A DNA stretch of 64,000 bases. It comes from Streptomyces roseifaciens. GTDB taxonomy: Bacteria > Actinomycetota > Actinomycetes > Streptomycetales > Streptomycetaceae. The DNA is taken from assembly GCF_001445655.1 (NCBI RefSeq), contig NZ_LNBE01000004.1, forward strand, positions 2,232,001-2,296,000. The letters run 5' to 3'. A program made the position numbers and the translations under genes. Below are positions 3,726 through 29,692 of the stretch, in pieces (position 1 is the first letter of the stretch; each line of letters opens with the position of its first letter). The notes beneath the pieces are model-generated. The model saw nothing but the letters and a program-made list of their open reading frames with translations, searched no databases and had not been told where the DNA came from.

Positions 3726-3938
3726 CTACCGGTCCCGGCCCGCGCCCTTCCTCCGGCGGACGGCGAAGGCCACGGACGACACCACGCCCGCCAGGCAGAA
3801 GCCCGCTCCCAGCACCGGCAGCAGCACGTACGAAGGGAAGTGCAGATCCCCGCGGGCCGCCCCCAGATACGCGACGGCGCACCCCAGCAGGACGAGCCCG
3901 ACGACCAGCTTGCCCGGCTCGAAGTCATGACGACGCAC
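3726..3938 (-). CDS. Small two-helix membrane protein
   Basis: A 70-residue protein starting with GTG, supported by GGAGG six bases upstream. It has two hydrophobic segments (LVVGLVLLGCAVAYLGAA and YVLLPVLGAGFCLAGVVSSVAF) and a basic C-terminus RRRKGAGR. Its first codons overlap the end of the upstream PspC-domain gene by 14 bases, so the two are probably translationally coupled. The function is unknown; it is likely an accessory subunit of the PspC protein. Confidence 0.75.
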   Translation of the reverse strand: MRRHDFEPGKLVVGLVLLGCAVAYLGAARGDLHFPSYVLLPVLGAGFCLAGVVSSVAFAVRRRKGAGRDR

Positions 3939-15202: not shown

Positions 15203-15225
15203 CTGTCAGTGGGGCGGCCTAGACT
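15203..15225 (+). promoter_or_regulatory. PafBC-type (RecA-independent) DNA-damage promoter of pcrA
   Basis: CTGTCAGTG, eight bases, then TAGACT fits the actinobacterial RecA-NDp motif (tTGTCRGtg-N8-TAnnnT), differing only at the first, weakly conserved base. The pcrA start codon is ten bases beyond the -10 box, so the transcript would be almost leaderless. Helicases of this family are known members of that regulon. Confidence 0.8.
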
Positions 15226-15234
15226 CGGGAGGCG

Positions 15235-17700
15235 ATGAGCAGCCTCTTTGACGACAGCTTCCTGGCGGACCTCGGCCCCGCGGACGAGGAGCACCCCCCT
15301 CCCCCGGAGGACGCGGCCCCGGAGCCGGTGCCGGACGATCTCTTCCAGGGCGCCTTCGACGTGCCCGTCCCCCGCGAGGCCTACTACCGCGACGGCGCCC
15401 ACCGGCCCGCCGTGGACCCGGCCGCGCTGCTCGAGGGGATGAACGAGCAGCAGCGCGCCGCAGTGGTGCACAAGGGCTCCCCCCTGCTCATCGTCGCCGG
15501 CGCCGGCTCGGGCAAGACGCGCGTGCTCACCCACCGCATCGCCCACCTGCTGGGCGCCCGGCACGTGCACCCCGGCCAGATCCTCGCGATCACCTTCACC
15601 AACAAGGCCGCGGGCGAGATGAAGGAGCGCGTCGAGCAGCTCGTCGGCCCCCGGGCCAACGCCATGTGGGTGATGACGTTCCACAGCGCGTGCGTGCGGA
15701 TCCTGCGCCGGGAGAGCAAGAAGCTCGGCTTCACGTCCTCCTTCTCGATCTACGACGCGGCCGACTCCAAGCGGCTCATGGCGCTCGTCTGCCGGGACCT
15801 CGACCTCGACCCGAAGAAGTTCCCGCCGAAGTCCTTCAGCGCGAAGATCTCGAACCTGAAGAACGAGCTCATCGACGAGGAGGCCTTCGCGGCGCAGGCC
15901 GCGGACGGCTTCGAGAAGACGCTCGCCGAGGCGTACGTGATGTACCAGTCGCGGCTGCGCGAGGCCAACGCCCTCGACTTCGACGACATCATCATGACCA
16001 CGGTGCACCTGCTCCAGGCCTTCCCCGACGTGGCCGAGCACTACCGCCGCCGCTTCCGGCACGTCCTGGTCGACGAGTACCAGGACACCAACCACGCGCA
16101 GTACACCCTCGTGCGCGAGCTCGTCGGCACCGCGGAGTCGTCGCCGGAGGAGGGCCCGGCCGAGCTGTGCGTCGTCGGTGACGCCGACCAGTCGATCTAC
16201 GCCTTCCGCGGCGCCACGATCCGCAACATCCTCCAGTTCGAGGAGGACTACTCCGACGCCACGACGATCCTGCTGGAGCAGAACTACCGCTCCACGCAGA
16301 CGATCCTCAACGCCGCCAACGCGGTCATCGAGCGCAACGAGAGCCGCCGCCCGAAGAACCTGTGGACCGAGGCCGGCGCCGGCCCGTCCATCACCGGCTA
16401 CGTCGCCGACACCGAGCACGACGAGGCCCAGTTCGTCGCCGACGAGATCGACCGCCTCACGGACGCGGGCGACGCCAAGGCCGGGGACGTCGCGGTCTTC
16501 TACCGGACCAACGCCCAGTCCCGTGTCTTCGAAGAGATCTTCATCCGCGTCGGCCTGCCCTACAAGGTCGTCGGCGGCGTGCGCTTCTACGAGCGCAAGG
16601 AGGTCCGCGACGTCCTGGCCTACCTGCGCGTCCTCGCCAACCCCGAGGACACCGTCCCGCTGCGGCGCATCCTCAACGTGCCCAAGCGCGGCATCGGCGA
16701 GCGCGCCGAGGCCATGATCGACGCCCTGTCGCTGCGCGAGAAGATCAGCTTCTCGCAGGCGCTGCGCCGCGTCGACGAGGCCTACGGCATGGCCGCCCGC
16801 TCGGCGAACGCGGTCAAGCGCTTCAACGTCCTCATGGAGGAGCTGCGCACGATCGCCGAGTCGGGCGCCGGCCCCGCCACCGTCCTGGAAGCGGTGCTGG
16901 AGCGCACGGGCTATCTCGCCGAGCTCCAGGCCTCCACCGACCCTCAGGACGAGACCCGCGTGGAGAACCTGCAGGAGCTCGCGGCCGTGGCCCTGGAGTT
17001 CGAGCAGGAGCGCGAGGAGGGGGAGCCCGGCACGCTGGCCGAGTTCCTGGAGAAGGTGGCCCTCGTCGCCGACTCCGACCAGATCCCCGACGAGGACGCG
17101 GAAGGCACCGGCGTCATCACGCTGATGACCCTGCACACCGCGAAGGGCCTGGAGTTCCCCGTCGTCTTCCTCACCGGCATGGAGGACGGCGTCTTCCCGC
17201 ACATGCGCGCCCTCGGCCAGGCCAAGGAGCTGGAGGAGGAGCGCCGCCTCGCCTACGTGGGCATCACCCGCGCCCGGGAGCGGCTGTTCCTGACGCGCGC
17301 GAGCATGCGCAGCGCGTGGGGCCAGCCCTCGTACAACCCGCCGTCGCGGTTCCTCGAGGAGATCCCCGACCAGTACGTGCAGTGGCGGCGCACCGGGCCC
17401 GCGAAGCCGTCGGCGTCGATGAGCTCGATCGGCTCGGGCGGCGGTGCGGGCTCCGGCATCACGTCGGGGTTCACGTCCTCGCGTGCCAAGGCAGGGCCGA
17501 GCGGTTTTGCGACGCGGCGTGCCAAGGACCGACCGGTGGTGGCGCTCGCCGTCGGCGACCGGGTCACGCACGACTCGTTCGGGCTGGGCACCGTCGTCGG
17601 GGTCAAGGGCAGCGGTGACAACGCCGAGGCCACGGTCGACTTCGGCGAGGAGAAGCCGAAGCGCCTGCTCCTGCGGTACGCACCGGTCGAGAAGCTCTAG
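15235..17700 (+). CDS. pcrA: ATP-dependent DNA helicase PcrA/UvrD
   Basis: An 821-residue superfamily 1A 3'-5' helicase used in repair, replication restart and clearing of stalled RNA polymerase. The Walker A motif GAGSGKTR is at about residues 89-96. Other helicase motifs follow in order: FTNKAAGEM (Ia), VDEYQDTNHAQY (II), GDADQSIYAFRGA (III), QNYRST (IV), TLHTAKGLEFP (V) and YVGITRARERL (VI). The C-terminal 50 residues (VGDRVTHDSFGLGTVV) form the Tudor-like domain that contacts RNA polymerase in PcrA. Length and order are typical of actinobacterial PcrA. A DNA-damage promoter lies directly upstream. Confidence 0.96.
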   Translation: MSSLFDDSFLADLGPADEEHPPPPEDAAPEPVPDDLFQGAFDVPVPREAYYRDGAHRPAVDPAALLEGMNEQQRAAVVHKGSPLLIVAGAGSGKTRVLTHRIAHLLGARHVHPGQILAITFTNKAAGEMKERVEQLVGPRANAMWVMTFHSACVRILRRESKKLGFTSSFSIYDAADSKRLMALVCRDLDLDPKKFPPKSFSAKISNLKNELIDEEAFAAQAADGFEKTLAEAYVMYQSRLREANALDFDDIIMTTVHLLQAFPDVAEHYRRRFRHVLVDEYQDTNHAQYTLVRELVGTAESSPEEGPAELCVVGDADQSIYAFRGATIRNILQFEEDYSDATTILLEQNYRSTQTILNAANAVIERNESRRPKNLWTEAGAGPSITGYVADTEHDEAQFVADEIDRLTDAGDAKAGDVAVFYRTNAQSRVFEEIFIRVGLPYKVVGGVRFYERKEVRDVLAYLRVLANPEDTVPLRRILNVPKRGIGERAEAMIDALSLREKISFSQALRRVDEAYGMAARSANAVKRFNVLMEELRTIAESGAGPATVLEAVLERTGYLAELQASTDPQDETRVENLQELAAVALEFEQEREEGEPGTLAEFLEKVALVADSDQIPDEDAEGTGVITLMTLHTAKGLEFPVVFLTGMEDGVFPHMRALGQAKELEEERRLAYVGITRARERLFLTRASMRSAWGQPSYNPPSRFLEEIPDQYVQWRRTGPAKPSASMSSIGSGGGAGSGITSGFTSSRAKAGPSGFATRRAKDRPVVALAVGDRVTHDSFGLGTVVGVKGSGDNAEATVDFGEEKPKRLLLRYAPVEKL

Positions 17701-20890: not shown

Positions 20891-21304
20891 ATGGGAGTGA
20901 CCGGTCCGATCCGCGTGGTGGTGGCCAAGCCCGGGCTCGACGGCCATGACCGCGGCGCGAAGGTCATCGCACGGGCGCTGCGCGACGCCGGCATGGAGGT
21001 CATCTACACGGGCCTCCACCAGACGCCCGAGCAGATCGTGGACACCGCCATCCAGGAGGACGCCGACGCGATCGGCCTGTCCATCCTCTCCGGCGCCCAC
21101 AACACCCTGTTCGCCAAGGTCCTGGAGCTGCTGCGCGAGCGCGACGCGGAGGACATCAAGGTCTTCGGCGGCGGGATCATCCCCGAGGCGGACATCGCAC
21201 CGCTGAAGGAGCAGGGCGTCGCCGCGATCTTCACCCCGGGGGCCACCACGGCCTCCATCGTGGAGTGGGTCAACGCGAACGTCCGTCAGCCGACGGAGGC
21301 CTGA
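20891..21304 (+). CDS. icmB: Cobalamin-binding small subunit, isobutyryl-CoA mutase type
   Basis: A 137-residue B12-binding domain protein. Start ATG follows GGAGG five bases upstream. [10 protein letters not shown] contains the DxHxxG motif whose His ligates cobalt. GLSILSGAH and FGGGIIP are the conserved loops around the cofactor tail. The size matches the stand-alone IcmB subunit of Streptomyces, which pairs with the large IcmA to interconvert isobutyryl-CoA and n-butyryl-CoA. No large subunit lies in this window. It could instead serve another small-subunit acyl-CoA mutase. Its 3' end overlaps the convergent DUF5691 gene by 35 bases. Confidence 0.88.
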
Positions 21305-22922
21305 CGGAGCCGGCGGGCAGCCCCGCCAGCTCCGCCCGCATCGTGGCCCGCAGCCGCAGCGTGCCCACGAGGCGCTGGAGCGCCTCCGCCCAGTACGCGG
21401 TGGCCCCGGCACGCCCGGGGGTGTCCGCGGCGGGGTCCTCCGGCAGCAGGGTCAGTGCCTCCAGCCGGTCCGCCTGCGCCGGGTCCAGGCAGCGCTCGGC
21501 CAGGCCCATCACCCCGCTGAAACTCCACGGATAGCCGCCCGCGTCGCGGGCGGCGTCCAAGGCGTCCACGATCGCCCGGCCCAGCGGCTCCGCCCACGGC
21601 ACCGCGCACACCCCGAGCAGCCGGAACGCGTCCGACAGCCCGTGCGCCGAGACGAACTCCGCCACCCACGCCGCCCGCTCGTCCCGCGGCAGCGCCGACA
21701 GCAGCTTCGCCGGATCCCTCCACGAGGTGCCCTCGGCCGCGGGCGGGGCCGACGCGGGGCCCAGCAGCGCCCGCGCCCACTCCGCGTCCCGCTGCCGGAC
21801 CGCGGCCCGGCACCAGGCGGCGTGCAGCTCGGGCTGCCAGCCGTCCGCGACCGGCAGCGCCACGATCTCCGCCGGGCTCCGCCCGCCGAACCGCCCGGAC
21901 CAGGCTGCCGGCGGGGTCGCCTCCACGATCTGGGCCAGCCACCACGAGCGCTCGCCGCGCCCGGACGGCGGCTTCACCACGACGCCGTCGCGCTGCATGC
22001 CCTTGTCGCACTCGTGCGGCGCCTCCACCGCGATCCGCGGGCCCTCTCCCTCTCCCGTGCGGTCCAGGGAGACGCAACTGCGGGCCCGCTCGGCCATGCG
22101 GGCCGCGAGTGCCGAGCCGGGCAGTGCCGACAGCAGCTCCGCCGCAGTGGCCCGGACGTTGCGGCTCCGGTCGGACAGGGCGCGCTCCAGGAACGGCTCG
22201 TCCTGCGCGGACAGCCCCTCGCGCAGCGCGTCGAGGAACATCAGGCGGTCCTCCGCCCGCTCCGTCGCCCACGAGCCGGCGAGCAGTTCGCGGGCGGCCG
22301 CGGGGTCCCGCTGCCGTACGGAGGCGAGGAGCGCGGCCCGCTCGGCGAACAGCCCCTCCTCCCAGACCCCGGTGTCCGTGCCTGTGCCTGTGCCCGTGCC
22401 CGCGGCCGGGCCCGTGTCCGCGGCGGGGCCGGGCCGCAACGCGTACTTCCACTGCGGGTTGAGCGCCGCCAGCCAGCGGGCCCGGGGCCCGCCGAACGCG
22501 AGCGCCTCCTGCCGCAGATCGCTACGGGACCTGGCCGCCTCCAGGAGGGCGGGCAGAAGTGCGGGAGGCGCCTGATAGCCGTGCCCGTTGGCGGCGGCCA
22601 GCCACTGGGGCAACAGCTCCGTCAGATCCGGGGAGGCGCCCCGTCGCCCGCCACCGCCGCTGCCGCTGCGGTCCGCGAGCAACAGGGCGAGCCGCCGCCG
22701 GGCCGCCGGAGGCAACGGAGGCCGGGCGTCCGCCGGCGCCGGCGCGGGCCGGGCGAGCGCCGCGGCGGGCACCGCCCCGGCGCGCCGCCGCACGGTGTCC
22801 ACCGCGGCGGCGTCCAGCAGCGCCACGGCCGCGTCCTGCCCGCCCCGCACCTCCACAGGCGGCACACGCCGCCCGGTCCCGAGCAGAGCGGAGGTGACGA
22901 GCTCGTCCCAAGTACGGTTCAT
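21270..22922 (-). CDS. DUF5691 family protein
   Basis: A 550-residue soluble, Ala/Leu/Arg-rich protein recognised as DUF5691 from its opening [15 protein letters not shown] and later [13 protein letters not shown]. Much of it reads as helical hairpins (HEAT-like; [20 protein letters not shown]). GGAAAGG precedes the ATG. The gene lies downstream of the SWIM gene on the same strand after a 336-bp gap with repeats, and belongs to the SWIM / MoxR / DUF5682 / VWA gene set. In the E. coli yeh cluster a HEAT-like protein (YehI) stands in a comparable position. A scaffold role is inferred only. Confidence 0.87.
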
Positions 22923-22952
22923 GCGCTGCCTTTCCTGACGGATACGGCGGTA

Positions 22953-23227
22953 CGGGCTGCCTGGGGCGGGCCCGGCACCGCCGGTGGGGTTGTGGGTGGT
23001 TGCTCGCCGTTGCGGCGGGGGTTGGGTGCCGGGCGAGGCTTGGCCGGTCGGCCGGGTGGCCGGTGGTTGCGGGTTGGGGGCCGGCCGCTTGTTTCCGCCG
23101 CGATGGTGATCAGCCGCAGCGGCGGTGTCCGGCGGTGCCGGGCTGCCTGGGGTGGGCTCGGCACCGCCGGTGGGGTTGTGGGGTGGTTGCTCGCCGTTGC
23201 GGCGGGGTTGGGTGCCGGAGTGAGGTT
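22953..23227. repeat. Imperfect direct repeat of about 88 bp in SWIM-DUF5691 gap
   Basis: A block beginning CGGGCTGCCTGGGG at 22953 (to about 23040) recurs at 23139 (to about 23227), with only a few mismatches and one-base indels, including GGGTGGTTGCTCGCCGTTGC in both. The 98 bp between the copies are GGCCGG-rich. No convincing gene occupies this 336-bp gap. Confidence 0.7.
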
Positions 23228-23258
23228 GGGGGTGCGGTTCGGCATCCGGTGGTGGCTG

Positions 23259-24638
23259 TCAGAGAGGGACCGGCTCCGGGGTCCACGTCGTCAGAGGGGT
23301 TGCGCCCCTGTGGCCGTACTCGGCGAAGATCTTGATCGGGGCGCCGCCCGATATCGATGCCAGCTGCCACAGGGCCGTGCTGTCGCGGTGCCGGGGATCG
23401 ACGGGCAGGGCGGCCGAACCGCCCTCGCCGTCGGCCAGTTGCCAGTGGCCGTCCGGGCCCGGAACCGGGACCACGCCGTCGAGGACGACCGGCCACGTCT
23501 CCAGCCAGGGGTCGTCGCGCAGGGCCTCCCCGTACGCGGAGAGGGCCGCTTCCACGCCGCCCCCCGCCGGCGGTCCCGCACTCTCCGCGGGCGGGGCGTG
23601 GCGCGTGCCGAGCACGGCGCGGAGCGGGTGCGCCGCCGGGTAGTAGACGAGGTCCGCGTCCAGGGTCAGGCCCACGGGCAGTGACAGCTCCGGCGCCCGG
23701 CCGGCCGCTCCGTAGGAGAGGAGCAGGGCCATCCGGCCCGAGTCCCGGCCGTGGAGCCAGATCCGGCGGGTGACCAGGCGCCCGTCATCGCCGTCCCGCT
23801 GCGCAAGGACCAGCCAGTGGTCGCGCACCGGCGTGCCGGACGCGAGCAGCGCCGCGGCGTCCGTGGTCAGGCCGACCCGCGACCGGACCGTCGCGGCCAG
23901 GGGCTCCGGCAGCTCCTGCAGGCGCAGCCACCCCTGGTTGAGGGTGTGCAGCAGGGCGCACTCCTCCAGCAGCCGGCCCGCCCAGTCGGCGCCCGAACCC
24001 GGCAGGGACGCCAACTCCCGCACTCGCGAGGCGAGACCGGGCGCCTGGGCGTCGACCATGCGGGCCGCCGTCTCCTCCCACTGCCCGTACCCCGCGCCCT
24101 CCGCGGCCGCCAGCCCCCCGCGCAGCAGATCGGCGAGCCGCTGCTCCAACTCCGTGACACCCGCGCCGATCCGCTCCGCCCGGCGCTCCCCGCGCCGCCG
24201 CGCGGCCTCCTCGTCCGCGGGCGTCGCGGGCCCCGCCGCGGCCGGGCCCGCGACGGCCTTCTCGGCCCGCTTCCGGCGCCGCTCCAGCCACTGCTCCGCC
24301 CAGCCGGGCGGAGCCTCCTGCGCGGCCGGCACCGCGGCCTCGCCGGAAGCCCACAACAGCAGCAGCCCCAGCGCGTGCTTGCACGGGAACTTGCGGCTCG
24401 GACAGGAGCAGTTGAAGCCCGGCCCGCCCTCCCCGGACAGGTCCACCACCGTGCGGTACGGCTTGCTGCCGCTGCCGGAGCACTCACCCCAGACCGCGCC
24501 CCCGCCCTCCTCCGGGCGCGCCCCCGCGCCCGACCACGGACCGGGCGCCGCGAGCTTGCTTCCTGCTTTGCGTGATGCGGCGTCAGGCGCCAGCGAGAGC
24601 ACCGTCTCCGCCGTCCATCGATCCCCCTGCGGATTCAT
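23259..24638 (-). CDS. SWIM zinc finger protein
   Basis: A 459-residue protein with a SWIM motif CxCx6CxH: Cys77, Cys79, Cys86 and His88 in FNCSCPSRKFPCKHALGLL. SWIM fingers bind DNA or proteins. The rest is helical and Ala/Glu/Arg-rich, with EEAARRRGERRAERIGAGV in a likely coiled coil. The ATG was chosen because it lies seven bases past a -10 box, giving a leaderless mRNA from a damage-type promoter. It is divergent from the MoxR-DUF5682-VWA operon and shares its promoter region. E. coli YehQ is the analogous SWIM member of the yeh cluster. Confidence 0.9.
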   Translation of the reverse strand: MNPQGDRWTAETVLSLAPDAASRKAGSKLAAPGPWSGAGARPEEGGGAVWGECSGSGSKPYRTVVDLSGEGGPGFNCSCPSRKFPCKHALGLLLLWASGEAAVPAAQEAPPGWAEQWLERRRKRAEKAVAGPAAAGPATPADEEAARRRGERRAERIGAGVTELEQRLADLLRGGLAAAEGAGYGQWEETAARMVDAQAPGLASRVRELASLPGSGADWAGRLLEECALLHTLNQGWLRLQELPEPLAATVRSRVGLTTDAAALLASGTPVRDHWLVLAQRDGDDGRLVTRRIWLHGRDSGRMALLLSYGAAGRAPELSLPVGLTLDADLVYYPAAHPLRAVLGTRHAPPAESAGPPAGGGVEAALSAYGEALRDDPWLETWPVVLDGVVPVPGPDGHWQLADGEGGSAALPVDPRHRDSTALWQLASISGGAPIKIFAEYGHRGATPLTTWTPEPVPL

Positions 24639-24645
24639 GCCCCAA

Positions 24646-24668
24646 ACGCTAGGGCCACCCACTGACAA
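24646..24668 (-). promoter_or_regulatory. PafBC-type DNA-damage promoter of the SWIM gene
   Basis: On the minus strand TTGTCAGTG, eight bases, then TAGCGT matches the RecA-NDp consensus at every defined position. Transcription would begin at or next to the ATG at 24638, so translation is probably leaderless. It forms the left arm of an inverted repeat with the promoter facing the other way. Confidence 0.82.
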
Positions 24669-24704
24669 TGGCCCTGACCTGCGGATTCGACACGTCCCGG
24701 CCCA

Positions 24705-24727
24705 TTGTCAGTGGGGTGGTGCAGGGT
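24705..24727 (+). promoter_or_regulatory. PafBC-type promoter of the MoxR-DUF5682-VWA operon
   Basis: TTGTCAGTG, eight bases, then CAGGGT. The upstream box is perfect; the -10 differs from TAnnnT only at the first base. The operon start is 38 bases further on, with its own ribosome site. The arms at 24655-24671 and 24702-24719 (ACTGACAATGG with CCATTGTCAGT) form a near-perfect inverted repeat. Confidence 0.75.
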
Positions 24728-24765
24728 GGTTCGCACATCCCGGATCCGCACACCTAGGGGGACTT

Positions 24766-25902
24766 GTGACCGTGCCCGGAACCGAAGGCGAAGCCGAGAA
24801 CGAGACCGAGACCGAGACCGAATCCCAGGCCCTGCGCCCGCACGCGGAGCACGCCTTCGCCGAGGAGCTCAAGGCCCTCGCCGCCGCCGACGACCGGCCC
24901 CGCCCCGAGCGCTGGAAGCTCTCGCCGTGGGCCGTCGCCACCTACCTGCTCGGCGGCACCCTGCCCGACGGCACCGTGATCACGCCCAAGTACGTGGGCC
25001 CGCGCCGCGTTGTCGAGGTGGCCGTCACCACGCTCGCCACCGACCGCGCCCTGCTCCTGCTCGGCGTCCCCGGCACCGCCAAGACCTGGGTCTCCGAGCA
25101 CCTGGCCGCCGCCGTCAGCGGCGACTCCACGCTGCTCGTCCAGGGCACGGCGGGCACCCCGGAGGAGGCCATCCGCTACGGGTGGGACTACGCCCGGCTC
25201 CTCGCCCACGGCCCCAGCCGCGAGGCGCTCGTGCCCGGCCCCGTCATGCGGGCCATGGCCCAGGGCATGACCGCCCGCGTCGAGGAGCTCACCCGCATCC
25301 CCGCCGACGTCCAGGACACCCTGATCACGATCCTCTCCGAAAAGACCCTTCCCGTCCCCGAGTTGGGCGAGGAGGTGCAGGCCGTCCGCGGCTTCAACCT
25401 GATCGCCACCGCCAACGACCGCGACCGCGGCGTCAACGACCTCTCCAGCGCCCTGCGCCGCCGCTTCAACACCGTCGTGCTGCCCCTGCCCGCCACGCCC
25501 GAGGACGAGGTCGACATCGTCTCCCGGCGCGTCGACCAGATCGGCCGCTCCCTCGACCTGCCGTCCGTGCCCGACGGCACCGACGAGATCCGGCGCGTCG
25601 TCACGGTCTTCCGCGAGCTGCGCGACGGCGTCACCACCGACGGCCGCACCAAGGTCAAGTCCCCTTCGGGAACGCTCTCCACGGCCGAGGCGATCTCCGT
25701 CGTCACCGGCGGCCTCGCCCTCGCCGCCCACTTCGGCGACGGCGTGCTGCGCGCGGGCGACGTGGCCGCCGGCATCCTCGGCGCGGTCGTCCGCGACCCG
25801 GCCGCCGACCGCCTCGTCTGGCAGGAGTACCTGGAGACGGTCGTCCGCGAACGCGACGGCTGGAAGGACTTCTACCGCGCCTGCCGTGAGGTCTCGGCGT
25901 GA
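24766..25902 (+). CDS. MoxR-type AAA+ ATPase
   Basis: A 378-residue AAA+ ATPase. Start GTG follows AGGGGGA. After a Glu/Thr-rich N-terminus it has Walker A GVPGTAKT (residues 100-107), a Walker B-like segment RVEELTRIPADVQ in which the usual DE reads EE, sensor 1 LIATANDRD and arginine finger ALRRRF. MoxR ATPases act as chaperones that remodel VWA partner proteins; here the VWA partner is two genes downstream. It resembles E. coli YehL. The stop overlaps the next start by GTGA. Confidence 0.92.
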   Translation: MTVPGTEGEAENETETETESQALRPHAEHAFAEELKALAAADDRPRPERWKLSPWAVATYLLGGTLPDGTVITPKYVGPRRVVEVAVTTLATDRALLLLGVPGTAKTWVSEHLAAAVSGDSTLLVQGTAGTPEEAIRYGWDYARLLAHGPSREALVPGPVMRAMAQGMTARVEELTRIPADVQDTLITILSEKTLPVPELGEEVQAVRGFNLIATANDRDRGVNDLSSALRRRFNTVVLPLPATPEDEVDIVSRRVDQIGRSLDLPSVPDGTDEIRRVVTVFRELRDGVTTDGRTKVKSPSGTLSTAEAISVVTGGLALAAHFGDGVLRAGDVAAGILGAVVRDPAADRLVWQEYLETVVRERDGWKDFYRACREVSA

Positions 25903-28484
25903 GCGGCACCGGAACCGGCACCGGCACCGGCCCCTTTCTGCTGGGCATCCGCCACCACGGGCCCGGCTCCGCGCGGGCGGTACGGGCGGCCCTGGAGCAG
26001 TGCCGGCCCGCGGCCGTCCTCGTCGAGGGGCCGCCCGAGGCCGACGGGATCGTTTCCCTCGCGGCCGACGAGGGCATGCGGCCGCCCGTCGCCCTGCTGG
26101 CCCACGCGGTGGACGACCCGGGCCGCGCCGCGTTCTGGCCGCTCGCCGAGTTCTCCCCGGAGTGGGTGGCGATCCGCTGGGCCCTGGCGCACGGGGTGCC
26201 CGTGCGGTTCATCGACCTGCCGGCGGCGCATTCGCTCGCGCTGGGCGAGGAGAACGGGCCCGGGCCCGAGGGCCCGCAGCCCGGCGCCCCCGCTTCCGGC
26301 GGCGCCGTGCAAAGCAACCATGCCGTGCAAAGCAACCATGCCGAGCGAAGCAGCCGTGCCGCGCGAACCGGCCGTGCCGCCGCCCCCGAAGCGCACCCCG
26401 CGCCCGGCGGGCCCGTAGAAGAGAAGCCCCCCGCCCTGCACGCCGCCCCCCGTCTCGACCCCCTCGCCGTGCTCGCCGCCGCCGCGGGCTACGACGACCC
26501 CGAAGTGTGGTGGGAGGACGCCGTCGAACACCGCCGCGGCCGGGACGGCGCCGACGCCCTCGCCCCCTTCGCCGCGCTCGCCGACGCCATGGCCGAACTG
26601 CGGTCCGCGTTCGGCGACGGCAACGGCGGCACCGGCGGCAACGACGGTGATGACGATAGCGACGGCGACGGATCCGGCGGCGCGCGGGACCTCGTCCGCG
26701 AAGCGCACATGCGGCTCAGGATCCGCGACGCCCGGCGGGAGTTCGGCGACGGGATCGCCGTCGTCTGCGGCGCCTGGCACGTGCCGGCCCTCGCCGAGCG
26801 GCGGACCGTCACCGCCGACCGGCAGGCCCTCAAGGGCCTGCCGAAGGTCAAGGCCGCGATCGGCTGGGTCCCCTGGACCCACCGGCGCCTCTCCCGTCAC
26901 AGCGGCTACGGCGCCGGCATCGACTCGCCCGGCTGGTACGGCCACCTCTTCCACGCCGCGGACCGCCCGCTCGAACGCTGGATGACGAAGGCCGCCCGGC
27001 TGCTGCGGGACGAGGACTTCCCCGTCTCCTCCGCCCACGTCATCGAGGCCGTCCGCCTCGCCCGCTCCCTCGCCGCCCTGCGCGGCCGCCCGCTCGCCGG
27101 CCTCACCGAGACCACCGACGCCGTCAGGGCCGTGATGTGCGACGGCTCCGACGTGCCCCTCGCGCTCGTACGGGACCGGCTCGTCATCGGGGACGTCCTC
27201 GGCGAGGTGCCCGACACGGCCCCCGCCACGCCCCTGCAGCGCGACCTCTCCCGCCTCCAGCGCAGCCTGCGCCTCAAGCCCGAAGCGGACGCCCGCGAGG
27301 TGGAGTTCGACCTGCGCAAGGACACCGACGCCGCGCGCAGCCGGCTGCTGCACCGCCTGCGGCTCCTCGGCGTCGGCTGGGGCGAGCCGGTCCGCTCCCG
27401 CACGGGGACCGGCACCTTCCGCGAGACCTGGCGGCTGATCTGGGAGCCCGAGCTGGCCGTACGGGTCGCCGAGGCCTCGGCCTGGGGCACCACCGTGCTC
27501 GCGGCGGCCACCGCGAAGGCCGAGGCCCGGGCCGTCGGCTCCGCCGCCCTCGCCGACGTCACGGCCCTCGCCGAGCACTGCCTGCTGGCGGAGCTTCCCG
27601 ACGCCCTCCCGGTCGTGATGCGCGTCCTGGCCGACCGCGCCGCCCTCGACGCGGACGTCGCCCACCTGGCCGAGGCCCTGCCGGCCCTCGTCCGCTCCGT
27701 GCGCTACGGCGACGTCCGCCGCACCGGCACCGCTGCGCTCGCCGAAGTGGCCGAGGGCCTGGCCGAGCGCGTGTTCGTAGGCCTGCCCGCCGCGTGCGCC
27801 GGCCTGGACGCGGACGCCGCGGCGGCCATGCGGGGCCTGGTCGACGGGGTCCACCGGGCGGTGGGGCTGCTGGCCTCGGAGCCGGGGCCCGGCGCGGAGG
27901 CCGGAGCCGCCCCGGAGGCCGGAACGACCGCACGTTCCCGGGGCGGTGCCGCGCCCGCCCTCCGGGACCGCTGGGCCGCCGTGCTCCGCGTGCTCGCCGA
28001 GCGGGAGGGGCTGCCCGGCGGGATCCGCGGGCGGGCCGTACGACTGCTGCTCGACGACGGGCTGCTGCCCGACGGGCGCGCCGCCCGGCTCATGGGACTC
28101 GCCCTCTCCGCCGGTGCGGAGCCGGCCGGGGCCGCCGCCTGGATCGAAGGCTTCCTCGGCAGCGGCGGGGCCGGCGGCACGCTCCTCGTCCACGACGAGC
28201 GCCTGCTCGCCCTCGTCGACGACTGGCTCACCGCCGTGCCGGGGGACTCCTTCACCGACGTCCTGCCGCTGCTGCGCCGCACCTTCTCCGCGTTCGATCC
28301 GGGAACGCGCCGCGTGCTGGGCGAGCAGATCCGCCGGGGCGGCCCGGGAGGAGCGGGAGCGGTACACGGCGGCCGGGCGGGGCACGGGACCGGGGCACGT
28401 CTCGACGAGGAGCGGGCGGCGGCGGTGCTGCCGACGATGCGCCTGCTGCTGGGCATGGCACACACAGGGGGAGCACGACGATGA
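25899..28484 (+). CDS. DUF5682 family protein
   Basis: An 861-residue protein with the DUF5682 opening LLGIRHHGPGSARAV, then LVEGPPEADGI and RFIDLPAAHSL. The N-terminal part resembles the TraB/erythromycin-esterase-like architecture with paired GHH-type and E residues, which hints at an enzyme; this is tentative. A low-complexity linker (residues about 125-175) includes hexapeptide repeats. The C-terminal half is helical. The gene overlaps both neighbours by 4 bases, so MoxR, DUF5682 and VWA are likely made together in fixed ratio. E. coli YehM is the counterpart. Confidence 0.9.
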   Translation: MSGTGTGTGTGPFLLGIRHHGPGSARAVRAALEQCRPAAVLVEGPPEADGIVSLAADEGMRPPVALLAHAVDDPGRAAFWPLAEFSPEWVAIRWALAHGVPVRFIDLPAAHSLALGEENGPGPEGPQPGAPASGGAVQSNHAVQSNHAERSSRAARTGRAAAPEAHPAPGGPVEEKPPALHAAPRLDPLAVLAAAAGYDDPEVWWEDAVEHRRGRDGADALAPFAALADAMAELRSAFGDGNGGTGGNDGDDDSDGDGSGGARDLVREAHMRLRIRDARREFGDGIAVVCGAWHVPALAERRTVTADRQALKGLPKVKAAIGWVPWTHRRLSRHSGYGAGIDSPGWYGHLFHAADRPLERWMTKAARLLRDEDFPVSSAHVIEAVRLARSLAALRGRPLAGLTETTDAVRAVMCDGSDVPLALVRDRLVIGDVLGEVPDTAPATPLQRDLSRLQRSLRLKPEADAREVEFDLRKDTDAARSRLLHRLRLLGVGWGEPVRSRTGTGTFRETWRLIWEPELAVRVAEASAWGTTVLAAATAKAEARAVGSAALADVTALAEHCLLAELPDALPVVMRVLADRAALDADVAHLAEALPALVRSVRYGDVRRTGTAALAEVAEGLAERVFVGLPAACAGLDADAAAAMRGLVDGVHRAVGLLASEPGPGAEAGAAPEAGTTARSRGGAAPALRDRWAAVLRVLAEREGLPGGIRGRAVRLLLDDGLLPDGRAARLMGLALSAGAEPAGAAAWIEGFLGSGGAGGTLLVHDERLLALVDDWLTAVPGDSFTDVLPLLRRTFSAFDPGTRRVLGEQIRRGGPGGAGAVHGGRAGHGTGARLDEERAAAVLPTMRLLLGMAHTGGARR
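26304..26375 (+). repeat. 18-bp tandem repeat inside the DUF5682 gene
   Basis: Four 18-bp units, the first two identical (GCCGTGCAAAGCAACCAT) and two degenerate, encode AVQSNH, AVQSNH, AERSSR and AARTGR. They keep the reading frame and use AAA and CAA-type bases that are rare around them. They lie in the low-complexity linker. Confidence 0.8.
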
Positions 28485-29692
28485 CCACGGACGCGAACAC
28501 GACCACTCGTACGGGCACCGGCACGACCGCCGCCGCCCCGGCCGACGAGCGCCTGCGCCGCTGGCGCCTCGTCCTGGGCGGCGACGGCTCCGCGGACGGC
28601 ACCGGCCGCGCCCTCTCCGGCACCGACGCCGCCATGGACCGCACCCTCGAAGCGCTCTACGGCGGCTCCGGCGTCCCGGGCGCGCAGGGCGCCGGTTCCC
28701 GCGAGGCCGGCCTCGGCGGCTCCGCGCCGCGCGTCGCCCGCTGGCTGGGGGACATCCGCACGTACTTCCCGGCGTCCGTCGTTCAGGTGATGCAGCGCGA
28801 CGCCGTCGACCGGCTCGGCCTGTCCTCTCTGCTCCTGGAGCCGGAGATGCTCGAGGCGGTCGAGGCCGACGTCCATCTCGTCGGCACGCTGCTCTCCCTC
28901 CACAAGGCGATGCCCGAGACCACGAAGGAGACCGCCCGCGCCGTCGTCCGCAAGGTCGTCGAGGACCTGGAGCGGCGCCTGGCCGGCCGCACCCGCGCGA
29001 CCCTCACCGGAGCCCTCGACCGCTCCGCCCGCATCAACCGCCCCCGCCACCGCGACATCGACTGGGACCGCACCATCCGGGCGAACCTCAAGAACTACCT
29101 GCCCGAGTACCGCACGGTCGTCCCCGAGCGGCTGGTCGGCTACGGCCGGGCCGCACGGGCGGTGAAGAAGGACGTCATCCTCTGCATCGACCAGTCCGGC
29201 TCCATGGCGGCGTCCGTCGTCTACGCCTCCGTCTTCGGCGCCGTCCTGGCCTCGATGCGCACCCTCGACACCCGCCTCGTCGTCTTCGACACCTCCGTCG
29301 TCGACCTCACCGACCAGCTGACCGACCCGGTCGACGTGCTCTTCGGCACCCAGCTCGGCGGCGGCACCGACATCAACCGCGCGCTCGCCTACTGCCAGTC
29401 ACGGATCACCCGCCCGGCGGAAACCGTCGTCGTCCTCATCAGTGATCTCTACGAGGGCGGGATCCGCGAGGGAATGCTCAAACGGGTGGCGGCCATGAAG
29501 GCCTCCGGCGTGCAGTTCGTGACGCTGCTCGCGCTCTCCGACGAGGGGGCCCCGGCCTACGACCGCGAGCACGCCGCGGCCCTGGCCGCCCTCGGCGCAC
29601 CGGCCTTCGCCTGCACTCCGGACCTCTTCCCGGAGGTGATGGCCGCCGCCCTGGAGAAGCGCCCGCTGCCCGTGCCCGACACGGCCGCCTGA
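28481..29692 (+). CDS. VWA domain protein (CoxE/YehP-like)
   Basis: A 403-residue protein whose ATG overlaps the DUF5682 stop. The N-terminal 220 residues are helical (VVQVMQRDAVDRLGL, then a basic stretch RINRPRHRDIDWDRTIRANL). The C-terminal von Willebrand A domain has a complete metal-dependent adhesion site: DQSGSM for DxSxS, a downstream Thr in GGGTDINRAL and an Asp in ISDLYEGG. It is cytoplasmic, with no signal peptide. It is the probable client of the MoxR ATPase of the same operon, like YehL-YehP. Confidence 0.92.
   Translation: MTTDANTTTRTGTGTTAAAPADERLRRWRLVLGGDGSADGTGRALSGTDAAMDRTLEALYGGSGVPGAQGAGSREAGLGGSAPRVARWLGDIRTYFPASVVQVMQRDAVDRLGLSSLLLEPEMLEAVEADVHLVGTLLSLHKAMPETTKETARAVVRKVVEDLERRLAGRTRATLTGALDRSARINRPRHRDIDWDRTIRANLKNYLPEYRTVVPERLVGYGRAARAVKKDVILCIDQSGSMAASVVYASVFGAVLASMRTLDTRLVVFDTSVVDLTDQLTDPVDVLFGTQLGGGTDINRALAYCQSRITRPAETVVVLISDLYEGGIREGMLKRVAAMKASGVQFVTLLALSDEGAPAYDREHAAALAALGAPAFACTPDLFPEVMAAALEKRPLPVPDTAA

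Follow-up and report, generated by a model that had tools for sequence, protein, structure and literature searches.

A set of five genes in the actinobacterium Streptomyces roseifaciens probably encodes, with a likelihood that we put at about 55%, one DNA-damage-induced AAA+ remodelling machine, the client of which would most likely be a protein on damaged DNA. The genes lie in a stretch of 64,000 nucleotides (contig NZ_LNBE01000004.1, positions 2,232,001 to 2,296,000), termed the window below, from the first letter of which positions are counted. They code for a SWIM zinc-finger protein, a DUF5691 protein, a MoxR-type AAA+ ATPase, a DUF5682 protein and a protein with a von Willebrand factor A (VWA) domain. 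Two observations set the five genes apart from a chance neighborhood: their order recurs in other phyla, and a pair of damage-type promoter sites recurs in 65 of 76 divergently arranged loci. What is new here is the co-conservation of these RecA-NDp sites with the set, the convergence of yeh-type genes on three damage regulators and the prediction of tandem OB folds. The evidence as a whole joins DUF5682, DUF5691 and the YehL-type ATPases into one unit and connects their kind with the response to DNA damage in three phyla, making a long-standing unknown of Escherichia coli (yehLMPQ and molR) and Streptomyces directly testable.

Gene organization and the shared control region

The set comprises two divergent units. 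On the minus strand are the genes for the DUF5691 protein (21270..22922; 550 amino acids; 585.8 bits with the Pfam profile) and the SWIM protein (23259..24638; 459 amino acids; 26.4 bits against a cut-off of 19.6), with a gap of 336 bases between them. On the plus strand follow the YehL-like MoxR ATPase (AAA_5; 24766..25902; 378 amino acids from a GTG start; 128.2 bits), the DUF5682 protein (25899..28484; 861 amino acids; 955.5 bits) and a VWA protein of the CoxE type (VWA_CoxE; 28481..29692; 403 amino acids; 206.3 bits), with four-base overlaps at both the MoxR/DUF5682 and the DUF5682/VWA junctions. The SWIM and MoxR units share the control region at 24639-24765. An earlier note on this DNA, made from the sequence alone, had described precisely this layout of five genes, two divergent units, one control region and four-base overlaps, and it stands at these coordinates.

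Damage-type promoters conserved with the set

Two sites in the control region, one per strand, match TTGTCAGTGG-N7-YANNNT perfectly: a RecA-NDp/PafBC-type promoter for the SWIM gene at 24646..24668 on the minus strand (TTGTCAGTGG-GTGGCCC-TAGCGT), and one for the MoxR-DUF5682-VWA unit at 24705..24727 on the plus strand (TTGTCAGTGG-GGTGGTG-CAGGGT). With one mismatch allowed, the window contains three matches to the pattern, whereas 100 shuffles gave 0.02 on average. A scan of 76 divergent Streptomycetaceae loci with TTGTCAGTG-N8-YANNNT found the plus-side site in 72 loci, the minus-side one in 68 and the full pair in 65; over the other 1,404,311 bases, which flank the set, it gave seven further sites, every one of them the pcrA promoter. 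The set thus carries a promoter of the TTGTCAGTGG-N7-TANNNT type that is kept in its relatives, as befits a member of the RecA-NDp/PafBC regulon.

The genome of S. roseifaciens itself (8.64 Mb) has 27 places matching TTGTCAGTGG-N7-YANNNT and none matching the reversed pattern. Scanning of 14 downstream reading frames confirmed with Pfam a DinB-type polymerase, a uracil-DNA glycosylase (ung), PolA (its 5'-3' exonuclease part), UvrB, an Lhr-type helicase and RecA; macrodomain, WGR and gyrase/topoisomerase IV A proteins are also found after such sites. Some of the 27 places have no sensible gene after them, and the intergenic position was not checked for each. The damage-type promoters that the earlier note had noticed are therefore borne out by the divergent pair of sites in relatives and by the same pattern before recA, uvrB, polA, ung and dinB. 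The ATG of the SWIM gene stands 7 nucleotides past its -10 hexamer, and several of the repair genes start 6-7 nucleotides past theirs, a spacing that suggests leaderless transcripts for the SWIM gene and these repair genes.

RecA-NDp promoters have been described beyond the mycobacteria and match the PafBC motif (PMC8223512), and PafBC is activated in mycobacteria by single-stranded DNA (ssDNA; PMC11804915). In Streptomyces coelicolor, such a promoter precedes SCO6735, which is induced fivefold by UV, while its deletion does not cause damage sensitivity (PMC5087735). Streptomyces has PafBC homologues, and an initial motif search suggested that the motif is not conserved in S. venezuelae (PMC9380542). 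Contrary to that suggestion, the sequences analyzed here contain a RecA-NDp motif that recurs in Streptomyces at large, S. venezuelae itself being outside our counts.

Several further sites came to light in these scans. The 27 genome-wide sites (L040-L066) outline a putative PafBC regulon in Streptomyces that also takes in a glyoxalase and an ABC ATPase. In the window, a one-mismatch site (CTGTCAGTGGGGCGGCCTAGACT, 15203-15225) lies just upstream of pcrA (15235-17700), and of the 38 pcrA starts covered in relatives, 13 have the pattern too. At L054:22-1449, a WGR-domain protein that includes a beta-propeller-like part has its RecA-NDp-type site about 2 kb from that of uvrB; it may be an isolated relative of the WGR partner found in yeh sets. 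A MoxR set that we could not classify (L039:3549-8217, from the Streptomyces genome G023), in which a MoxR gene follows one for a 1161-residue protein with a C-terminal VWA domain, has a RecA-NDp-like site (TTGTCAGTGG-N7-TAAGTT) directly before its first gene; DUF5682, first reported in L017 and L039, failed to be recovered by hmmscan of the translations and is not used.

Conservation of the set as one unit

DUF5682 occurs in 10 of 149 Actinomycetota genomes, and DUF5691 exceeds its cut-off in nine, all among those ten (Fisher p=1.3e-13, kinship not being corrected for). In all nine, the two genes adjoin, sharing a contig and lying no more than about 6 kb apart; a tenth DUF5691 match, in a genome without DUF5682, is below the cut-off. 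The nine genomes belong to four families, with four being Streptomyces and three coming from one other family, and in the latter three the DUF5691 match is limited to the first 146-210 of 491 positions. The co-occurrence that the earlier note had proposed to check was accordingly found for this pair.

A genome scan with the MoxR alignment returned at least 584 relatives, of which the nearest 80 were kept, so that the following figures lean towards close kin: a SWIM gene is present in 79, DUF5691 in 73, DUF5682 in 79 and VWA in 71. The missing genes are lost to contig ends, with the unexplained exception of one VWA gene (in L103). The divergent arrangement of the window is seen in 76 of the 80; in one locus (L128) the SWIM gene is cut off, and in Catenulispora, Planomonospora and Rhodococcus all five genes are on one strand. 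Beyond these kin, the order SWIM-DUF5691-MoxR-DUF5682-VWA recurs in annotated plasmid records (10 of the 36 that matched were examined) of Rhizobium etli, Deinococcus taeanensis, whose set includes an additional small gene, and Methylosinus, in which the VWA gene looks broken. Searches with tblastn found it also on a plasmid of Methylobacterium and in Nocardia and Nonomuraea. In Hymenobacter (Bacteroidota) the order is nearly kept, with SWIM and DUF5691 merged into a single gene of 1009 residues and one further small gene present, and Fusobacterium has SWIM, a 637-residue protein without a Pfam match, MoxR, DUF5682 and VWA. The SWIM-DUF5691 fusion is also seen in a partial Nocardia protein (P0291), and S. 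atratus has a fusion of DUF5682 to VWA. Thus, the retention of the set across distant phyla, which the earlier note had put forward, is seen as the full order in plasmids of Alphaproteobacteria and Deinococcota and nearly so in Bacteroidota; on co-occurrence, order and fusions, as read from the genomes, the five genes form one unit.

Within Streptomyces, DUF5691 is present in 98 of 101 genomes, and 57 of 63 long loci also encode SucC; both counts fit a core repair task better than variable defence. These figures bear on the proposal, advanced for the related vWA-MoxR ternary systems (PMC7159879), that such genes are an anti-phage or anti-plasmid conflict system, here one sensing damaged or foreign DNA. 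Copies on plasmids, some beside recombinases or insertion sequence (IS) elements, are in keeping with it, as is the accessory nature in Streptomyces of the WGR-DUF4132 partner of the E. coli-type sets (see below). Set against this are, besides the counts for DUF5691 and SucC just given, the outcome of a PADLOC search, which returned only IetA for the MoxR protein (E 0.017 and 0.039) and nothing for the other four, a MoxR below the cut-off for bpMoxR, and a Pfam profile scan in which none of the five proteins showed a known effector domain. Likewise, no YehL-type relative emerged when 2.9 million viral contigs were searched by pattern, the one match being generic, at 22%. Hence, the defence role that the earlier note had entertained is not favored, no convincing virus copy having been found, and we regard a conflict system as quite unlikely. 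The sole phage record, MT835988 ('Bacteriophage sp.'; L157), was discarded as a case of phage carriage: it is a faecal contig of bacterial appearance in which MoxR-DUF5682-VWA are followed by MgsA/RarA, DUF5717 and DUF5716 genes, and which also encodes a polysaccharide deacetylase.

Relatives in E. coli and convergent damage wiring

The earlier note had likened the set to E. coli yehL, yehM, yehP, yehQ and yehI. In MG1655, yehL, yehM, yehP and yehQ are consecutive, and the likeness holds for three of the proteins: the window MoxR is 40% identical to YehL over 356 residues (E 2e-72), the VWA protein is 36% identical to YehP, and YehM is itself a DUF5682 protein (330.8 bits). By full-length similarity and adjoining VWA_CoxE and DUF5682 genes, the window MoxR belongs to the YehL subfamily, the only MoxR subfamily compared, and eight diverse YehL-type members have invariant blocks in common. 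The likeness is not supported for DUF5691: YehI is a DUF4132 protein, and a profile comparison (hhalign) with only three YehI sequences gave a probability of 0.1%, such that DUF5691 was rejected as its counterpart. With YehQ, represented in the profile comparison by only two sequences, the window SWIM protein has nothing in common beyond the SWIM finger at this sensitivity. WGR and DUF4132 were found in none of the five window proteins, which include DUF5691 instead, and this places the set outside the E. coli yeh system in the strict sense. Because YehI is a DUF4132 protein and YehF a WGR protein, at least two kinds of system can be distinguished: type A with DUF5691, as in the window, and type B with WGR and DUF4132. 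An S. atratus megaplasmid (L154:2872-15582) combines DUF4132, a 1640-residue protein without a Pfam match, MoxR, the DUF5682-VWA fusion and a SWIM protein with a sub-threshold match, an arrangement that by its gene content is a third type.

Types A and B can coexist. The Streptomyces genome G128 has both, with a type B MoxR 64% identical to YehL. Of 199 Streptomyces genomes, 20 encode the WGR-DUF4132 protein of type B (the other yeh genes having been looked at only in G128), and 18 of these 20 have a RecA-NDp-type site on the gene strand, either upstream of the first aligned residue or level with it. Ten of the 18 were counted by script and eight by hand, the latter where the alignment starts 21-105 residues into the query; in those eight the site is 69-154 nucleotides before the alignment start (touching it in L190). 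Two of the 18 sites have a mismatch in the first T. As for the exceptions, G209 has the site on the other strand and G168 has none.

In E. coli, a LexA-like box, AACTGGATAAAATTACAGGG, ends 7 nucleotides upstream of yehF; it is one of 10 sites at the same threshold in 30 kb, and the second by consensus count. The name molR presumably refers to the yehF/yehH/yehI region. It is listed among the LexA-regulated genes of E. coli (PMC11039860; PMC8533742) and as an SOS gene absent from Acinetobacter (PMC3978071). In Deinococcus radiodurans, DRA0165, which is in an operon with the DUF4132 gene DRA0166, and the WGR gene DR2173 are targets of DdrO by chromatin immunoprecipitation, RNA and motif, and mitomycin C raises the levels of the DRA0166 and DR2173 proteins (PMC8533742). 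For type A, the D. taeanensis set, a single locus, has a DdrO-type site with two mismatches (L149:3747), which precedes the SWIM gene (at 3768) by 20 nucleotides; plain shuffles give 0.16 DdrO-type sites per locus in a scan of this locus with the published consensus and two mismatches. In 15 loci outside the Streptomyces group, none of the alphaproteobacterial LexA, actinobacterial LexA, E. coli LexA, radiation/desiccation response motif (RDRM) or TGTCARTG core patterns was found before the operon. Accordingly, yeh-type genes of three phyla have ties to three unrelated damage regulators, namely a PafBC-type regulator, LexA and DdrO.

This convergence speaks against the view that the promoter resemblance is all there is, with RecA-NDp-like control serving general stress proteostasis rather than DNA. 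MoxR proteins are chaperone-like in several systems (PMC3893208) and the DNA binding of the window set is itself a structure-based prediction, both of which this view can accommodate; nevertheless, the ties to PafBC, LexA and DdrO, and the WGR domains of the second, yeh type, make it highly improbable.

One E. coli record stands apart: the conjugative plasmid L153 carries the cluster from yehI to yehQ together with btsSR and mlrA, near IS26 and a beta-lactamase gene, and is a chromosomal block moved to a plasmid.

Protein architectures and the proposed mechanism

The MoxR protein has the motifs GVPGTAKT at 100, EEL at 173 and LRRRF at 230, and the VWA protein has DQSGS at 237, GGGTD at 293 and ISDLYE at 320, resembling a metal-ion-dependent adhesion site (MIDAS). 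We take these to be an intact Walker A, Walker B and arginine finger in the former and an intact metal site in the latter. The SWIM protein has invariant C78, C80, C87 and H89, numbered as in the model and alignment (one higher than from the ATG at 24638, the count beginning with the preceding codon at 24641). Its C-terminal half is predicted as tandem OB folds, with a predicted local distance difference test (pLDDT) score of 92, and its structural matches are mostly OB folds, among them SSB, PriB, RPA, telomere-end and HIN domains; the protein is therefore predicted to combine a zinc finger with tandem OB folds. DUF5691 gave only a weak HEAT-repeat match (16.1 bits, under the cut-off of 23.5).

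We infer that the five products act as one complex under PafBC control in Streptomyces. Damage would expose ssDNA, which would activate PafBC and thereby turn on both divergent promoters. The SWIM protein, held on a DUF5691 scaffold, would serve as the arm that recognizes DNA or substrate, probably binding ssDNA; the MoxR ring, coupled through the metal site of the VWA protein, would supply ATP-driven force; and the DUF5682 protein, with its solenoid and its conserved head rich in His, Glu and Asp, would join the VWA protein and process or hold the client.

The DUF5682 head, a possible hydrolase and the supercoiling response

The DUF5682 model has an N-terminal alpha/beta domain and a C-terminal helical solenoid. 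Twenty diverse members have invariant R18, H19, E43, S86-P87-E88, D106, G291 and H294, with G16 nearly so, and R18, H19 and E43 remain over 90% conserved in an alignment of 79 rows that includes truncated ones. At the second GxxH there are weak profile matches (E 0.036-0.11) to TraB in 3 of the 20 members and to ChaN in one. Fold searches with the whole model were filled by the solenoid rather than the head, a PDB sequence search with the head gave nothing believable (best E 0.023), and hhalign against an EreA-like profile gave 0.3%, that profile being thin: EreA, TraB and ChaN, searched in 80 genomes each, matched in 10, 1 and 1, too few for good profiles. With conserved residues reminiscent of a GxxH...E...GxxH pattern, the head may belong with the TraB/TIKI/ChaN hydrolases, and any hydrolase activity would reside there.

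A narrower version of the remodelling machine follows from this, and we hold it only tentatively, as a rather improbable case: the machine would clear proteins stuck on DNA, such as trapped topoisomerases, stalled polymerases and DNA-protein crosslinks, with the SWIM/tandem-OB arm finding ssDNA at the lesion, the MoxR-VWA motor unfolding the bound protein and DUF5682 cutting it as a TIKI/TraB-type metallopeptidase. The eukaryotic pair of Cdc48/p97 and SPRTN would be an analogue of such a machine. If true, this version would mean that PafBC, LexA and DdrO each recruited relatives of the machine independently, and it would account for the influence of SCO4804 on topA and gyrase described below.

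The invariant His, Glu and Asp residues across diverse members, the presence of the haem-binding ChaN among the weak matches and the CoxE type of the VWA protein, with its score of 206.3 bits, would be expected if MoxR and VWA matured a metal-binding DUF5682, as CoxD and CoxE serve CO dehydrogenase. Such a metal- or cofactor-insertion chaperone leaves the damage promoters, the SWIM protein and DUF5691 unexplained, and moeA and moeB of D. radiodurans are unresponsive to DdrO depletion (PMC8533742); we consider it very doubtful.

The DUF5682 orthologue in S. coelicolor is inferred to be SCO4804: its 815 amino acids compare with 814 for the S. coelicoflavus DUF5682 protein in the same place, and we take it as DUF5682 because of this match in size and synteny. 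Disruption of sco4804 by Tn5 reduces both the activity of the topA promoter and the amount of TopA, leaving supercoiling of the mutant unaffected; overexpression increases topA and also influences gyrase transcripts, and depletion of TopA raises sco4804 eightfold and adjacent genes too (PMC8120823). One reading of these data is that DUF5682, perhaps with the VWA protein SCO4805, is a regulator of DNA topology that activates topA and gyrase transcription on supercoiling. Yet the insertion is polar on sco4805 (PMC8120823), the alpha/beta head and helical solenoid of the DUF5682 model resemble no recognised regulator fold, and across phyla DUF5682 adjoins an AAA+ ATPase. Moreover, imbalance of supercoiling also induces recA, recX, lexA, dinP, dnaE2 and uvrA, a response to altered TopA that its authors ascribe to LexA (PMC6637917); as recA, lexA, dinP and dnaE2 respond too, the rise of sco4804 on TopA depletion may be damage signalling through RecA-NDp sites. 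We therefore regard a topology regulator as unlikely, and the damage-induced remodelling machine offers a second reading of the published supercoiling response of SCO4803-4805.

Comparison with known systems

In open literature, we found no mention of DUF5682, DUF5691 or bpMoxR and no description of the set as a system. The earlier note's statement that none existed holds for the system as a whole; it does not for its parts, given SCO4804 (DUF5682 by size and synteny; PMC8120823) and the place of molR in the LexA regulon (PMC11039860). S. coelicolor SCO4803-SCO4805 are orthologues of window genes as inferred from synteny and size; the available text of PMC8120823 presents SCO4804 as a potential transcription regulator that might work together with SCO4803 and SCO4805, and mentions no link to MoxR, VWA, SWIM or PafBC.

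Two systems resemble the window set in pairing MoxR with VWA. In the vWA-MoxR ternary conflict systems, the pair is likewise joined by further proteins (PMC7159879); the window MoxR scores 23.2 bits with bpMoxR, under the cut-off of 27, no VMAP or STAND match exceeds its cut-off, and the main text of that paper, as available, contains neither 'SWIM' nor 'YehL'. In the RavA-ViaA pair of E. coli, the window VWA reaches just 18.8 bits with the ViaA model, for which the cut-off is 500. D. radiodurans DRA0165-DRA0166 (DUF4132) and DR2173 (WGR) are alike in a different respect, as partner families of the yeh type placed under DdrO (PMC8533742).

Another close parallel is the E. coli yehF-yehI-yehL-yehM-yehP-yehQ locus (the molR region), which resembles the window in its MoxR, VWA and DUF5682 homologues, a SWIM protein and a link to damage. 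It differs in having WGR and DUF4132 in place of DUF5691, in the placement of all its genes on one strand and in the use of LexA rather than a PafBC-type promoter.

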